Source: Candidatus Gastranaerophilales bacterium (lineage in GTDB: Bacteria > Cyanobacteriota > Vampirovibrionia > Gastranaerophilales > Gastranaerophilaceae). Taken from it: 38,069 bases of DNA. Numbering within the stretch: position 1 is the stretch's first letter; each line of letters starts with the position of its first letter. Below the pieces are notes generated by a model that worked only from the letters and a program-made list of their open reading frames with translations, was not told the DNA's origin and made no database searches. Position numbers and translations under genes: made by a program. Below, piece after piece: positions 3 through 30,396 of this stretch. The stretch covers positions 1 through 38,069 of the forward strand of contig CALUQJ010000010.1 of the NCBI GenBank assembly GCA_944322865.1. The letters run 5' to 3'.

Positions 3-899
3 TTGTATGAGCAAATCCCCAATGCGCATCTGTCTGAAATAGGCATGAGTTATATACTTATGATTACTCTTAAAACTACCTGCTTAATTATAGGTCCAAT
101 ATTATTTTTGGCATGGTTTGTTGCAATTATGGCGGATTTTATTCAGGTCGGACCGCTCGTTGCGACAGCTCCTCTTATGCCAAAACTCGATAAACTTAAT
201 CCGACAAAATATTTCAAAAACATTATGTCAATCAAAACACTTTTTGAATTGATGAAAAATATTGTTAAAGTTGTACTTTTGGGATATATCGGCTGGAGTG
301 TTTATACAAAACACATTGAAAGCATACTTATGCTGGCGGCTGTTGATAACAATTTTGCTGTAATGATAGAGTTCGGAAAATTAATCACAGATTTTATTTT
401 TCAGGCGTGTATTGCCTTCCTTGTAATTGCCGCCGCGGATTACGGTGTTACAAAATGGAAGTTTTTAAAAGACCAAAAAATGTCTTTTAAAGAAATTAAA
501 GACGAATACAAAAACACAGAAGGTGATCCGAACGTAAAAGCCGCACTTCGCCAACGCCGCATGCAGATGCTGCAAAGAGGCATGATGGACGCAGTCCCTG
601 AAGCTGATTTTGTTGTCACTAATCCGACACATATAGCATGTGCGCTCAAGTATAAAGCTGAAGAAATGGCTTCCCCTATGCTTATTGCTAAAGGTACCGA
701 GTTAATTGCTAAAAAAATTATTAAAATAGCAAATGAACATGCTGTGCCAGTTATTGAAAATCCGCCGGTTGCCCGTGCTTTATTCAAAATGGTTGACCTA
801 AACCAGATGATTCCGCCGGAATTATACAAAGCAGTTGCAGAAATTCTGCTTTTTGTATATAACATGAAAAATCCTACAAATAATGGTATGAGAAAATAA
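3..899 (+). CDS. flhB: Flagellar export gate/switch protein FlhB, 3' part
   Basis: FlhB is the membrane substrate-specificity switch of the flagellar type III export apparatus. The window opens inside the gene: 298 codons remain of a family usually 350-380 long, and the TTG at position 3 is only the first in-frame codon, not a supported start. The visible part shows hydrophobic segments (about residues 20-45, 87-112 and 128-148), a charged linker, and the cytoplasmic domain with the NPTH autocleavage motif at residues 207-210. The C-terminal part ends in the usual PPELYKAVAEIL region. A virulence-type SctU would look similar, but the sigma-28-type factor immediately downstream favours the flagellar member. 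It ends with TAA at 897-899, 26 bases before the sigma factor, so the two genes are probably co-transcribed. Confidence 0.9.
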   Translation: MYEQIPNAHLSEIGMSYILMITLKTTCLIIGPILFLAWFVAIMADFIQVGPLVATAPLMPKLDKLNPTKYFKNIMSIKTLFELMKNIVKVVLLGYIGWSVYTKHIESILMLAAVDNNFAVMIEFGKLITDFIFQACIAFLVIAAADYGVTKWKFLKDQKMSFKEIKDEYKNTEGDPNVKAALRQRRMQMLQRGMMDAVPEADFVVTNPTHIACALKYKAEEMASPMLIAKGTELIAKKIIKIANEHAVPVIENPPVARALFKMVDLNQMIPPELYKAVAEILLFVYNMKNPTNNGMRK

Positions 900-925
900 A
901 ACTTATGTTATTATTATAATTGATC

Positions 926-1579
926 ATGATTATGCAAGATAAAAATAAATTACAAGAATATATAGATATAGTACAAAAAGTTGCGCGTGTTGAATACAGG
1001 CGTATTCCGTCACACATGGTCGATTATGAAGAACTCGTATCAATAGGAATTCTGGCTATACAAGCACTTGTTCAAAACAAATCACCTGAACAATTGGAAA
1101 AATACAATGCCGCATATATTGCTACTGCCGTAAGGTGGGCGATAAGAAACGAATTGAGAATACGTTACAAATGGTATTCACTTAAACATAAACAAGATGA
1201 TGAGGATATTGAAGAAGGAACGGAAGTCGATGAAAAAACAAAAGTTCGTGAGGCTGTTTATGAAACAATTCTTTCCATAGACGGACTTGCTGCTGCCGCA
1301 AGCGATAACGATTCTCCGTTTGATTTTATAAAAGATACGCATGCCATGCCGGATGAAAATGCGGAAATTACAGAGCTCGGGCGCATGATAAGGGAAGCTA
1401 TTACAAAATTACCGCCAAAAGAAAGAACCGTAGTTGAGTACCGTTTTTACCGTAACATGCAGGTAAAAGATATAGCAAAACAAGTCGGGCTTTCTTCTTC
1501 ACGTGTAACGCGTATTGTTCAGGCATCTTTAAATTCTATTAAGGAATATCTTAATTCGCGTGAACAATTTGGTTATTAA
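926..1579 (+). CDS. fliA: Sigma-28 family RNA polymerase sigma factor (FliA/WhiG-like)
   Basis: This is a small sigma-70-family factor of about 217 residues, the size of FliA/SigD. Region 2 is recognisable near the N-terminus (DYEELVSIGILAIQAL, followed by a YIATAVRWAIRNELR helix). Region 4 lies at the C-terminus, with LPPKERTVVEYRFYRN followed by a helix-turn-helix (VKDIAKQVGLSSSRVTRIVQ). Region 3 is short and acidic. The position right after flhB suggests control of late flagellar genes, as known for this family. The start is uncertain: TTG 920, ATG 926 and ATG 932 are in frame and none has a good ribosome binding site; ATG 926 is used here. A WhiG-type or other alternative sigma role is possible, because the assignment rests on the neighbour and general architecture. 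Confidence 0.82.
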   Translation: MIMQDKNKLQEYIDIVQKVARVEYRRIPSHMVDYEELVSIGILAIQALVQNKSPEQLEKYNAAYIATAVRWAIRNELRIRYKWYSLKHKQDDEDIEEGTEVDEKTKVREAVYETILSIDGLAAAASDNDSPFDFIKDTHAMPDENAEITELGRMIREAITKLPPKERTVVEYRFYRNMQVKDIAKQVGLSSSRVTRIVQASLNSIKEYLNSREQFGY

Positions 1580-12840: not shown

Positions 12841-12957
12841 TAGTTATGTTAAAAAAATTCAGGATAATTTTAAATTTAGTATTACTATTAGATTGTCTGG
12901 CTATTTGTATAGTTAAGAAATGTAACGAAAAATGTAATAGATGAAATCAGAATGAGA

Positions 12958-12977
12958 GTATATACTTTATATATATA
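12958..12977 (+). promoter_or_regulatory. Shared GTATATAC element, copy 1 (gene-less)
   Basis: The core GTATATACTTTATATATATA, followed by AAGAGAGAGTATAA, is the same element found upstream of the three orphan genes at 27047, 28707 and 29683. Here no start codon follows at the usual distance of 44-47 bases; about 80 bases later comes a terminator hairpin. The upstream CAATTTTTTAAA block seen with copies 3 and 4 is absent. Confidence 0.7.
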
Positions 12978-12984
12978 AAGAGAG

Positions 12985-13087
12985 AGTATAAAAAATATTA
13001 TCCGTTTAAAAAAAAGAGAGAACAAATTCCTACCTTCCTAAAAAACAAGTATTTAAAAAGCCCCTTTATTCAAGGGGCATTTTTTTA
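12985..13087 (+). ncRNA. Candidate small non-coding transcript
   Basis: Between regulatory element copy 1 and the terminator at 13055-13087 lies about 100 bases with no ATG or GTG start behind a ribosome binding site. An element used as a promoter elsewhere in the window, followed by a strong hairpin with a T-run on the same strand, is the layout of a small RNA gene. A decayed fourth member of the orphan family that has lost its coding region would look the same. Either way this is inferred only from layout. Confidence 0.3.
13055..13087. terminator. Bidirectional Rho-independent terminator
   Basis: GCCCCTT (13060-13066) pairs with AAGGGGC (13072-13078) around a five-base loop. It is flanked by an A-run on the left and a T-run on the right, so it can work on both strands. 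It lies 15 bases past the pyk stop codon and would end pyk on the minus strand. Confidence 0.9.
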
Positions 13088-26946: not shown

Positions 26947-27002
26947 GTGATTTGTAAACAAATATTAAGCAAAAATTTTCACAAAAGGCAATTATTTAAA
27001 AA

Positions 27003-27022
27003 GTATATACTTTATATATGTA
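27003..27022 (+). promoter_or_regulatory. Shared GTATATAC element, copy 2
   Basis: The core GTATATACTTTATATATGTA starts 44 bases before ATG 27047. In this copy AAAGTATATACTTT (27000-27013) is a perfect 14-base palindrome. TTTGTAAACAAATATTAAG about 50 bases upstream recurs before copy 3 (from 28609), which shows that the regulatory region was duplicated together with the gene. Confidence 0.75.
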
Positions 27023-27046
27023 TACAACTAAAGAGAGGTATAAATT

Positions 27047-28570
27047 ATGGTACACATTCCCCCATACTTTAGACGACCTGCGTTTTTACCAACGCGCAAT
27101 AGTTACACAAACATTACCGAGATAAATATCGGTGGCGGCGGACATTCACATCACTGTCACGGCGGCGGCTGGGGCGGCAGCTGGGGTGGCGGCAATATGG
27201 GCGCCTGGTTCGGATTAGGATTATTATCCAGTTTCTTCCAGTCAATCGCAAATAGAGGTAAAGAGAACACAACAACAGTTGTGCAGCAGCCGATTGTTAT
27301 GATACCGCAGCAGCAGTTGTATGGAAACTATAATATCGGTTATAACGCAGGATTATATACACCTGGTACGGGAATGAATAACGGATATAATTACGGTTTC
27401 AATCAAGGACTTTACAACAGCGGCACCATGGGACAATACAGTTCTATGCAGGGACAATACGGTGCACAGCAGGCTGTAATGGCAACCCGCGGCAACGAAT
27501 TAGTTGCAATGGTTAAAGATTTAGGTAATGATTATGGCTTCCAGTTTGGTGAAAACGAAGAAATTCCTAAACTCACAGCAGACGGACAAAAATATACTTA
27601 CAAAAATAAAACTTTTGAGAATGTAACTGATTTAAGAAACTTTATTGAAAAACAGGAGGGATTAACGGGCGCTGACACGTCCACTGACCCCTCAGTAGAA
27701 AGTGAAGAAACTGTTGTTCAGGAAACTCCACTGACAGTTGAGGACGACACTCCGTCTGTTGTAGATACAGACCCGGTCGTACAAGAAGAAACAGTTACGA
27801 CACCACCTGTGGAAACAACACCTACTCCTACAGCTACAGATCCGCTCGGAGATGATAATTCTGAAATTGAAACAATTTCAAGAGAACAATCAGAAAAAAT
27901 GTTTGCTCAACTTGAAGATGTGTTCGGCAAAGTTCCATCCGGAGTTGAACTGAATGCGGACGGCACTTTCAATTACGGCAGATATCAAAATCTCAACATA
28001 AATGCTTTGAAATATGCGGTAACTGCTCAGGAAAATTATGACAAAAATCCTGAAACCCCTGTAAGTTACAATAATTATGTAAATAACGACAACGACAGGA
28101 TTTATGCTGACGGTCAGCTTTCAATAACAAGAAACCAGCTATCAAACGCGGAATCTTACGGAGCATTCTTGGTCAGGAACAATCCTGATACCTACATTGA
28201 ATTAGGTAAAATTTCAGACGCTGATTTTGAAAAAACATTCAAAAATATGCATGAAGATAATGTAAAAGATGCTGAACAGGATATTACCGAAGAAGAATTT
28301 ATGGCATACCATAAAGCGTATGAATTAAATGCCAAAGAAGGCGTAATTAAACGCGACAAAGAAAGACTAAAATATGAAACCGTAGATATAACGGCAGCTG
28401 ATGAAGCTCATTTGAAAAACTTCTTCTATGCAATGTCAAACGGCTCAGGTAATGTCACCAAACAGCAGTATATAGATTTTATGACTGACTTATTCAGTAC
28501 ATATAACGGTCAAATTACAAGAGCTCAATTAGATGATTTCTGTGTAAATTGGCTTAATCAAAACAATTAA
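27047..28570 (+). CDS. Orphan Gly/His/Tyr-rich protein with EF-hand-like C-terminus
   Basis: The 507-residue product has no known family and no Sec signal. Order of parts: a short N-terminal strand motif NITEINI (22-28); a Gly/His/Trp-rich patch (29-50); a hydrophobic segment (about 51-65); and a Tyr/Asn/Gly/Gln-rich region with loosely repeated YN-GLY units (about 90-145). A folded segment (148-205) and a Thr/Pro/Glu/Val linker (206-270) come next. The C-terminal helical domain has degenerate EF-hand-like loops (NDNDRIYADGQLSI at about 347-360, SNGSGNVTKQQY at 464-475, STYNGQITRAQL at 484-495). It is the first of three genes under the shared element and has its own terminator. Function unknown; surface or exported scaffolding is a guess. 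Confidence 0.7.
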   Translation: MVHIPPYFRRPAFLPTRNSYTNITEINIGGGGHSHHCHGGGWGGSWGGGNMGAWFGLGLLSSFFQSIANRGKENTTTVVQQPIVMIPQQQLYGNYNIGYNAGLYTPGTGMNNGYNYGFNQGLYNSGTMGQYSSMQGQYGAQQAVMATRGNELVAMVKDLGNDYGFQFGENEEIPKLTADGQKYTYKNKTFENVTDLRNFIEKQEGLTGADTSTDPSVESEETVVQETPLTVEDDTPSVVDTDPVVQEETVTTPPVETTPTPTATDPLGDDNSEIETISREQSEKMFAQLEDVFGKVPSGVELNADGTFNYGRYQNLNINALKYAVTAQENYDKNPETPVSYNNYVNNDNDRIYADGQLSITRNQLSNAESYGAFLVRNNPDTYIELGKISDADFEKTFKNMHEDNVKDAEQDITEEEFMAYHKAYELNAKEGVIKRDKERLKYETVDITAADEAHLKNFFYAMSNGSGNVTKQQYIDFMTDLFSTYNGQITRAQLDDFCVNWLNQNN

Positions 28571-28581
28571 CAGACTCCTTC

Positions 28582-28606
28582 AAGCCCCTTAAAATGGGGC
28601 TTTTTT
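28582..28606 (+). terminator. Rho-independent terminator of the first orphan-family gene
   Basis: AAGCCCC (28582-28588) pairs with GGGGCTT around the loop TTAAAAT and runs into a T-run to 28606. Confidence 0.9.
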
Positions 28607-28659
28607 ATTTGTAAACAAATATTAAGAACACTAGAGCTAAAAAGTCAATTTTTTAAAGA

Positions 28660-28679
28660 GTATATACTTTATATATATA
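28660..28679 (+). promoter_or_regulatory. Shared GTATATAC element, copy 3
   Basis: The core GTATATACTTTATATATATA starts 47 bases before ATG 28707. It is preceded by TCAATTTTTTAAAGA and followed by AGAGAGTATAA, both of which recur at copy 4. Confidence 0.78.
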
Positions 28680-28706
28680 AGAGAGTATAAAATAAAGGAA
28701 ACAAGT

Positions 28707-29537
28707 ATGACATTGTACAATATGGTCGGTTGTAATACAAGTCGAACACACTCAGGTGGTGTAACCCTGCGGGCAGGTCAGTTCCGCGGTTACAGACCGG
28801 CAGTGAATATTCGCAATACAACTACTATAAACGATACAATAATCATAAATCAGCGGAGCAATCATTGCTGTAATACCCCTACCTATTGTGATGTTCCTCA
28901 AAATAATACATTGGGCTTGTTTGCATTATTCGCAGGAATAAAGTCAATTTTAGACAAATTCCTGCCTAAAAAAGAAGAAACACCTGTTGAACCTGAAGGA
29001 CAAGGCGCTCCGAAAGTTGAACCTGAAGTTAAAAAAGAGGAAACGCCTGTAGTTACAACAGACCCGGTTAAAAAAGAAGAGCCAAAAGATATATATGATG
29101 CCTTTATAACGCCTAAAACAGTTGAAGAAGAAGGCGACTATCACAAAGTTAAACACGGTGAATGCTGGTATGATGTATTAGATGGCATGTATCCGGGTAT
29201 ACCAAGTTCTGACAGAAAAGCAGCAATGCGAGAGTTGAAAAAAGCAAACGGTATGACTGATTTTAATTCTGCTGATATGCCGAGAAAAATGTATCTGCCT
29301 AAAGAAATAAAAGTCGGCAATAATGTTTACGAACTCAATAAGGAGGGAACTGTTACCGGCACAGTTACAGAATTTACAGAAGGCGGCATGTATAATGCTA
29401 ATATTCCGACAACTACATCTACCACATATGACCTTACGGGTACTAAAAATAATGAAAATGTATTTACGCGAACTTATACGGATTTGTCGCAGGCGCAGGC
29501 GGACGAGAAAAAATGGGAAGCTCAAAACGATGCTTAA
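28707..29537 (+). CDS. Orphan protein with LysM-like domain
   Basis: This 276-residue product has no Sec signal. The N-terminal part carries TTTINDTIIIN (38-48), a motif shared with the third gene of the trio. A short Cys-containing stretch and a hydrophobic segment (about 68-86) follow, then a Pro/Glu/Lys/Val-rich linker (88-125). The domain at about 144-200 resembles LysM: an opening HKVKHGECWYDVLDGMYPG, an ELKKANG helix end and a closing PRKMYLPKEI. LysM domains bind peptidoglycan or chitin-type sugars, so contact with the wall is a reasonable inference. The Thr-rich C-terminus is unassigned. GGAAAC precedes the ATG, and a strong terminator follows. Confidence 0.68.
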   Translation: MTLYNMVGCNTSRTHSGGVTLRAGQFRGYRPAVNIRNTTTINDTIIINQRSNHCCNTPTYCDVPQNNTLGLFALFAGIKSILDKFLPKKEETPVEPEGQGAPKVEPEVKKEETPVVTTDPVKKEEPKDIYDAFITPKTVEEEGDYHKVKHGECWYDVLDGMYPGIPSSDRKAAMRELKKANGMTDFNSADMPRKMYLPKEIKVGNNVYELNKEGTVTGTVTEFTEGGMYNANIPTTTSTTYDLTGTKNNENVFTRTYTDLSQAQADEKKWEAQNDA

Positions 29538-29573
29538 AACACCTTCCAAAGTTAAAACGGAAGGTGTTTTTTT
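29536..29573 (+). terminator. Rho-independent terminator of the second orphan-family gene
   Basis: AAAACACCTTCC (29536-29547) and GGAAGGTGTTTT (29559-29570) form a perfect 12-bp stem followed by Ts to 29573. The hairpin begins within the stop codon region. Confidence 0.93.
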
Positions 29574-29636
29574 ATGTCCGGTTTTTTGTTAAGTAATGTA
29601 AAGTTAGTATATACAAAAAAGGCAATTTTTTAAAGA

Positions 29637-29656
29637 GTATATACTTTATATATATA
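29637..29656 (+). promoter_or_regulatory. Shared GTATATAC element, copy 4
   Basis: The core GTATATACTTTATATATATA starts 46 bases before ATG 29683, with GCAATTTTTTAAAGA upstream and AGAGAGTATAA downstream. An additional GTATATAC octamer lies at 29607-29614, exactly 30 bases upstream of the core. Confidence 0.78.
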
Positions 29657-29682
29657 AGAGAGTATAACAAAAGGAGACGACA

Positions 29683-30396
29683 ATGTCCGTAGGCGGCGTT
29701 GGATTTTCACCAACAAAAAACATAAAACCAATGGCATATAACGGAATACGCTCGACCGGCTTCAAGGGAGTTAAGGTCTTTCAGAGTGATACGACTATTA
29801 ACAGGACTGTCGTCATCAACGAGGAAGAGAGCACGCACAAATCAAGTAATAAGGGCAAGAAAATACTCGCCGGTGTACTAGGTGCTCTTGGTATTGTAGG
29901 GCTTGCGGCGGGCATTGCAGCTTTGTTTAAAAAAGATAAAACAGACGATACGCAGCCAACACAGGATACAACGCAACAGCAGCCGCCGGCAGAAACAACT
30001 CCACAGAAAACTTTATTTGGCGGTATGTTGGAAACTGTTATGGTTAATGGAGATGCCTCATTGGCAAAAGCTAAAGGAAATGAGATTAAAGAAGACCCGT
30101 TCTACTTTGATGAAAAAGGTAATAAATTAACTGTAGAAGATACGGCGAAAAAACTCCAATCTGTCTATAGCGGTATTGTAAAAGATATAAAAATCGAACA
30201 ACAGTCAGACGGAACGTATAAGGCAACAATTATTATACCTGATACTCTGAAGCATAACGGTGCAACCGCATCGACTGAATTAAGCGGAATAAAAACACCT
30301 GAGGATCTGGACGATCTTGTAACCAAGGCAATGCAAAATCTGTATGCCGGCGGAAGCAATAACCCGTTTGCGTCCAAACCAACTGAGGAAACTTAA
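29683..30396 (+). CDS. Orphan membrane-anchored protein of the three-gene family
   Basis: The 237-residue product is of no known family. The N-terminal 50 residues contain DTTINRTVVIN (36-46), matching the strand motif of the preceding gene. A basic stretch leads into a Gly/Ala-rich membrane helix (61-82). A Thr/Gln/Pro/Asp-rich linker (85-108) and a small alpha/beta C-terminal domain (about 110-222) follow. The order strand motif, hydrophobic segment, low-complexity linker, C-terminal domain is the same in all three neighbours, although the C-terminal domains are unrelated to the eye. AAAGGAGA precedes the ATG. No hairpin terminator is visible before rpiB. Confidence 0.68.
   Translation: MSVGGVGFSPTKNIKPMAYNGIRSTGFKGVKVFQSDTTINRTVVINEEESTHKSSNKGKKILAGVLGALGIVGLAAGIAALFKKDKTDDTQPTQDTTQQQPPAETTPQKTLFGGMLETVMVNGDASLAKAKGNEIKEDPFYFDEKGNKLTVEDTAKKLQSVYSGIVKDIKIEQQSDGTYKATIIIPDTLKHNGATASTELSGIKTPEDLDDLVTKAMQNLYAGGSNNPFASKPTEET

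Follow-up and report, generated by a model that had tools for sequence, protein, structure and literature searches.

Three adjacent genes in a Candidatus Gastranaerophilales genome share a block of upstream sequence and encode orphan proteins. Does this block mark a small dedicated system, or does it have a wider function? The genes lie between positions 26,947 and 30,396 of a stretch of 38,069 nucleotides (nt), hereafter the window, which is contig C10 of a 1.80-Mb genome that is 99.6% complete. The host belongs to a non-photosynthetic sister lineage of the photosynthetic cyanobacteria. Gene 1 (27047..28570, 507 amino acids, aa), gene 2 (28707..29537, 276 aa) and gene 3 (29683..30396, 237 aa) are on the forward strand, as are all the window features described below. 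The shared block was confirmed, and it is a bipartite promoter module, composed of an upstream box and a rigid −35/−10 core, of a regulon found throughout the Gastranaerophilales. As far as the open-access literature searched goes, this regulon is undescribed.

Results

An earlier note, based on the DNA sequence of the window, described the element before the three genes and proposed that they form separate transcripts under common non-canonical control. The exact sequence GTATATACTTTATATAT was found at 27003, 28660 and 29637. Its distances to the ATG codons at 27047, 28707 and 29683 are 44, 47 and 46 nt, and the chance expectation with up to 3 mismatches is 0.48 matches per window. The blocks said to flank it (CAATTTTTTAAAG and GAGAGTATAA) are present before genes 2 and 3, but gene 1 has variants (CAATTATTTAAAA; AAAGAGAGGTATAA). 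Another sequence, TTTGTAAACAAATATTAAG, is exact before genes 1 and 2, as had been reported; a variant that had escaped notice precedes gene 3 (29586) and is also located at 12910, each 48–51 nt upstream of a core. Gene 1 is followed by an intrinsic terminator (28582..28606, z −2.3) and so is gene 2 (29540..29573, z −4.6), the latter with a 12-bp stem, an 11-nt loop and a T-run. A terminator scan downstream of gene 3 found none, in agreement with the claim that all genes except the last have their own. The complete modules consist of a box resembling HLR1, the target of the response regulator RpaB, and the core. They are located at 26952..26968 (TTGTAAACAAATATTAA, a motif derived de novo in other genera) and 26988..27024 (GCAATT ... 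TACTTTATATATGTATA) for gene 1, at 28609..28625 and 28645..28681 (TCAATT-N11-GTATATACTTTATATATATAAG type) for gene 2, and at 29586..29602 and 29622..29658 for gene 3.

A genome scan showed that the core is not scattered at random with respect to gene starts. The window has a fourth exact copy at 12958, overlooked before, and three more are found elsewhere in the genome (C16:665, C17:15050 and C36:767). Six of the seven exact sites are 44–51 nt before a start codon, and downstream of the seventh there is a predicted, conserved terminator-ended RNA rather than a start codon. All seven are preceded by the box, 48–51 nt before GTATATAC, and the box matches 10–12 of 12 positions at each of the seven core-only sites of this genome. 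The proposed common control of separate transcripts is real and conserved across the genus and the order.

An ungapped comparison of 96 sites from the genus defined the core as GCAATT-N11-AWATACTTTATATA, with a fixed distance of 17 nt between GCAATT and TTTATA. The base composition of these sites reads G-C/A-A-A-T-T, 11 free bases, A-W-A-T-A-C-T-T-T-A-T-A-T-A, usually followed by T/A-A-T-A. The box was located 31–36 nt upstream of the core, in either orientation, in 84 of 89 genus sites. Since the profile used to find genus sites already included the box, the box was tested separately on sites identified by the core only. The core-only pattern MAATT-N11-AWATACTTTATA produced 492 matches in the 59 genomes of the order that were searched, compared to 2 for the reversed pattern, and 0 in the outgroup of the class. 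Unseeded expectation-maximization analysis of 73 core-only sites from other genera recovered the same 18-bp box in 59 of them, mostly 33–36 nt before the core, with a log-likelihood of 384 versus 70–88 in shuffles. Simple box scoring gave a concordant result, with 34 sites matching at 11–12 of 12 positions when 1.4 were expected. A profile made from the seven sites detected further members in the same genome at falling scores; at E ≤ 0.1, each of the six genus genomes yielded about 20.

The reverse complement (TTGTTACATTTCTTAACA) of the box consensus, TGTTAAGAAATGTAACAA, fits the HLR1 consensus of RpaB, KTTACAWW-N2-KTTACAWW (PMC13421787, PMC9241938), with one half-site position that tolerates A or T. 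The genome has an RpaB ortholog on C25, which scores 363 bits against the NF045944 equivalog (cut-off 330) and is the only one of four OmpR-type regulators to pass this cut-off. Homologs of RpaA, RpaB and NblS had been noted in this group, their role being unknown (Di Rienzi et al. 2013, PMC3787301; PMC5877343). At C31:19710 (L025), a gene for a 96-aa protein has an ordinary promoter (TTGACA-17-TATTAT) with an HLR1-like box in front of it, which suggests a role for the box at housekeeping promoters as well.

Some of the controlled transcripts are predicted small RNAs (sRNAs). The fourth core copy in the window is part of a promoter with a box at 12910..12926 and a core at 12943..12979 that has a GAAATC variant of the −35 element. 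It precedes a predicted sRNA with no open reading frame (ORF) at 12978..13086, also missed by the earlier note, which is conserved in all six genus genomes and whose 5′-end was placed from the promoter. The sRNA includes the blocks ATCCGTTTAAA (12999–13011) and ATTCCTACCTTCCTAAA (13026–13042, anti-Shine-Dalgarno) and a terminator (13058–13086). Within the genus, the ORF-less sites correspond to conserved, terminator-ended transcripts. In other genera, a terminator is located within 170 nt of 25 of 31 ORF-less sites (1.2 expected) versus 1 of 41 coding sites, and at least two CU motifs (repeated CTTCC/CCTACC) are present in 14 of the 31 (2.45 expected) versus none of the 41. Because the CU-rich stretches are complementary to Shine-Dalgarno sequences, these sRNAs would probably act by translational repression of other mRNAs. 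None of them had an Rfam match above the gathering score; the only such matches in the window were tRNAs, and elsewhere there were sub-threshold chance matches. At L213 and L219 (G029 and G034), two tandem, near-identical copies of a CU-rich sRNA each have their own bipartite promoter. In one family of the order (L246, L255 and L259, G024), the RNAs under this core belong to a different family, in which AATTTGGTAATGTGCTAACGATGG precedes the terminator.

A second predicted sRNA, of about 58 nt, is located in the same genome at C44:13111 (L024), unlinked to the first and with the same promoter class. About 24 nt of it are complementary to the window sRNA, interrupted by one mismatch and one bulge, and the pairing without the terminators reached z −5.0 (0 of 1000 shuffles). 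The AAGAGAG leader block seen in the earlier note is likewise matched by a complementary segment, CUCUCUU, in the C44 sRNA. It is possible that the two sRNAs form a sponge pair.

Within the genus, the protein-coding targets comprise the window trio and other orphan proteins, most of them 55–240 aa long; all were conserved in the six genomes, and a lytic-transglycosylase-like protein was also among them. The order of the trio is constant in all six, and gene 1 has an ortholog in each. In the three proteins a short N-terminal segment closes with a hydrophobic stretch and an acidic/proline-rich linker; gene 1 has a Gly/His/Cys-rich N-terminus, a hydrophobic stretch, an acidic linker and a helical C-terminal part, and gene 3 has an invariant N-terminal YNGxRSTGFKGV block. 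The idea that the trio arose by duplication and shares a layout is partly supported: the N-terminal ~70 residues of genes 2 and 3 are homologous (hhalign 91%, E 9e-7), but gene 1 is weakly related at best (25%, E 8e-4 in one comparison and no match in another). Rfam, Pfam, PDB sequence, plasmid and phage searches with the trio returned nothing informative. The relatives of gene 2, at 57–84% identity, all come from metagenome-assembled genomes annotated as Candidatus Gastranaerophilales. In the predicted structure of gene 2, the C-terminal part folds with good confidence, and residues ~141–209 are arranged in a LysM-like way. Comparison with 4uz2 gave Z 4.6 and a root-mean-square deviation of 1.7 over 47 residues, and several other LysM entries had middling Z values. 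This is suggestive of the beta-alpha-alpha-beta fold of LysM; Foldseek returned no match at E ≤ 0.001, and none of six orthologs matched the Pfam LysM sequence profile. The AlphaFold model of gene 1 (mean predicted local distance difference test score 42) was set aside.

Other families were observed in these genomes. Several proteins of 350–420 aa have the common start MGMAASQAR(L/Y/F)L (L080:13428–14633, L084:2782–4056 and L084:6405–7448), and those tested had no clear Pfam match. An array of paralogous small proteins starting with MNPFKINQ(N/S)LTFNI, with three or more of its members next to each other, is located at L081:12754–15245 (C36). Many proteins start with sequences like MKISAINxxxxxxxFTG/FKG (window positions 1615 and 36947; L118, L083). 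F[KRTSQNH]G is modestly enriched near N-termini; the motif F[KR]G was considered as a genome-wide export signal and discarded, its enrichment being weak (3–4% versus 1–2%).

No flagellin was found in the genus, yet a flagellar-type export apparatus is kept as a FliE-FliF-x-FliH-FlhA operon plus FlhB, and a non-flagellar use is possible. Most relatives examined also have a second protein with the FlhA C-terminal domain alone. The loci concerned are window positions 3–1579, L117 (C74) and L118 (C5). Directly downstream of flhB there is a gene for a FliA/WhiG-like sigma factor (920..1579), a neighborhood kept in 28 of 30 genomes examined. In G013 (C10:29361–30020), this flhB-linked sigma gene is matched in two separate pieces on one strand, as if frameshifted.

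Discussion

From the module, its spacing and conservation, its link to starts and terminators, and the presence of an RpaB ortholog, we infer a regulon with RpaB-type activation, a non-housekeeping sigma factor, and small proteins and CU-rich sRNAs as output, a reading to which we give a probability of about two-thirds (0.66). The HLR1-type direct repeat, centered near −62, would be the binding site of a response regulator of the OmpR family, probably the RpaB ortholog. This regulator would then activate an RNA polymerase with a non-housekeeping sigma factor that reads GCAATT-N11-AWATACTTTATATA as −35 and −10 elements separated by a rigid 17-nt spacer. The coordinated output would be many small lineage-specific proteins, including the window trio, and a set of CU-rich sRNAs whose unpaired segments, complementary to Shine-Dalgarno regions, probably repress other mRNAs. 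A stronger version is tentative and, on balance, doubtful: that RpaB, via a dedicated sigma factor of new specificity, controls a regulon that spans the order and is made up of small orphan proteins and of anti-Shine-Dalgarno sRNAs in multiple copies, with the C44 sRNA as sponge or antagonist of the window sRNA.

Several points weigh against our interpretation. The promoter, the role of the regulator and the sRNAs are predictions from sequence. HLR1-like boxes are also found away from the core. In cyanobacteria, activation by RpaB has been reported for boxes at −66 to −45; here the box would lie a little further upstream, at about −71 to −54 of the inferred start. There are three further OmpR-type regulators (C53, C61 and C22) and about ten sigma genes in the genome, and 13 and 25 core sites are present in G003 and G048, two genomes that lack the flhB-linked sigma. 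The pairing between the two sRNAs was not significant when the terminators were included (z −1.5 to −1.8).

The identity of the sigma factor bears on the strongest competing explanation, which is that the housekeeping sigma reads the core with the aid of the box-bound regulator and that no alternative sigma intervenes. This is a real possibility, though we consider it the less probable outcome. The 17-nt spacer is of normal sigma-70 length, and the ordinary-looking promoter at C31:19710 has an HLR1-type box. However, the −10 region, TACTTTATATA, is unlike TATAAT and far more conserved, GCAATT takes the place of TTGACA, and both elements are kept across the order. Compared to TTGACA-N17-TATAAT, both hexamers of the core consensus differ, and the forward-strand cores were not picked up by a sigma-70 scan. 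The core was also compared to FliA and sigma-54 promoters and, as in the case of sigma-70, it did not match the consensus. The flhB-linked sigma is one candidate reader, but it is not clearly the reader because G003 and G048, which lack it, still have the promoters; as the sole reader it is contradicted. A paralog at C12:11003, or another sigma factor, is at least as likely.

A second explanation maintains the promoter class and assigns the box to another OmpR/PhoB-type regulator, either RpaA-like or one of the paralogs on C53, C61 and C22. A 10-bp period in direct repeats is characteristic of the OmpR family in general and four such regulators are encoded, but only the C25 protein exceeds the RpaB cut-off, and it is the HLR1 consensus in particular that the motif fits. 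We consider this substitution possible but rather improbable.

Could the regulon mainly supply substrates for the flagellar-type export apparatus, driven by the FliA-like sigma beside flhB? The retention of the apparatus without flagellin, the constancy of the sigma gene next to flhB and the fact that several targets are small helical proteins speak for this idea. Nonetheless, the region upstream of the export operon (C74) has no such promoter, which excludes the operon as a member of the regulon, the FliA consensus is absent, G003 and G048 have the promoters without this sigma, and an export signal was not demonstrated. As the main function, export supply is unlikely; some link between the regulon and export is possible.

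The proposal in the earlier note, a dedicated three-gene surface or export-related system, is very improbable. It finds some backing in the synteny of the trio in the six genus genomes and in the LysM-like fold of gene 2, the sole exception among Pfam and PDB sequence matches that otherwise give no pointer to export. But the same promoter drives about 15–25 transcripts per genome in the family, sRNAs included, and its distribution over many unlinked genes and RNAs contradicts exclusivity. The three-gene reading is too narrow: in a regulon that spans the order, the trio makes up a small share. The remaining alternative is a repeat that was duplicated locally, or is mobile, and regulates nothing; the several near-identical copies close together in the window might suggest it. 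It can practically be dismissed, as the promoter elements alone are conserved, at fixed spacing and in divergent contexts across the order.

RpaB is a redox and light-response regulator of cyanobacteria, and its role in this group has been left open since 2013 (PMC3787301). The regulon proposed here, with RpaB-type activation, offers a testable answer as to what this regulator does in a lineage without photosynthesis, and bears on the evolution of the photosynthesis control circuit from an older one. For gut bacteria that are common but uncultured, it also provides the promoter signature of an undescribed regulon and, as far as could be found, the first candidate sRNA families of the order. 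Dozens of conserved orphan small proteins can be listed through guilt by association.

Among known systems, sigma-28 (FliA) promoters, of consensus TAAA-N15-GCCGATAA, share the rigid spacing, and a FliA-like sigma adjoins flhB in this lineage; that consensus is absent from the base frequencies of the 96 genus sites. In the Vibrio LuxO/sigma-54/Qrr system, a response regulator and an alternative sigma drive redundant sRNAs. The parallel lies in several terminator-ended sRNAs under a non-sigma-70 core that has a regulator box in front of it, whereas here there is no sigma-54 promoter, the regulator is of the OmpR rather than the NtrC type, and many small proteins are co-regulated. The alpha-r14/NfeR1 family comprises anti-Shine-Dalgarno repeat sRNAs with the motif CCUCCUCCC (PMC10746234). 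In both groups the RNAs are short, end in a terminator and contain several copies of C/U-rich motifs that are complementary to ribosome-binding sites. The sRNAs described here differ in sequence, host and promoter class, and have the motif (C)CUUCC(C)/UUCCU in a mostly unstructured stretch; three hairpins, each with CCUCCUCCC, were not found in them, and the terminator alone folds stably. Unlike the NblS-RpaB/HLR1 regulon, the one described here has no photosynthesis genes and joins the box to its own rigid −35/−10 core; its targets comprise small orphan proteins, along with CU-rich sRNAs that resemble none of the Rfam families searched. The two have in common an RpaB ortholog, a direct repeat with a 10-bp period, a box upstream of the −35 element, a placement that may suit activation, and an sRNA among their members, which in Synechocystis is the trans-acting PsrR1 (PMC13421787).

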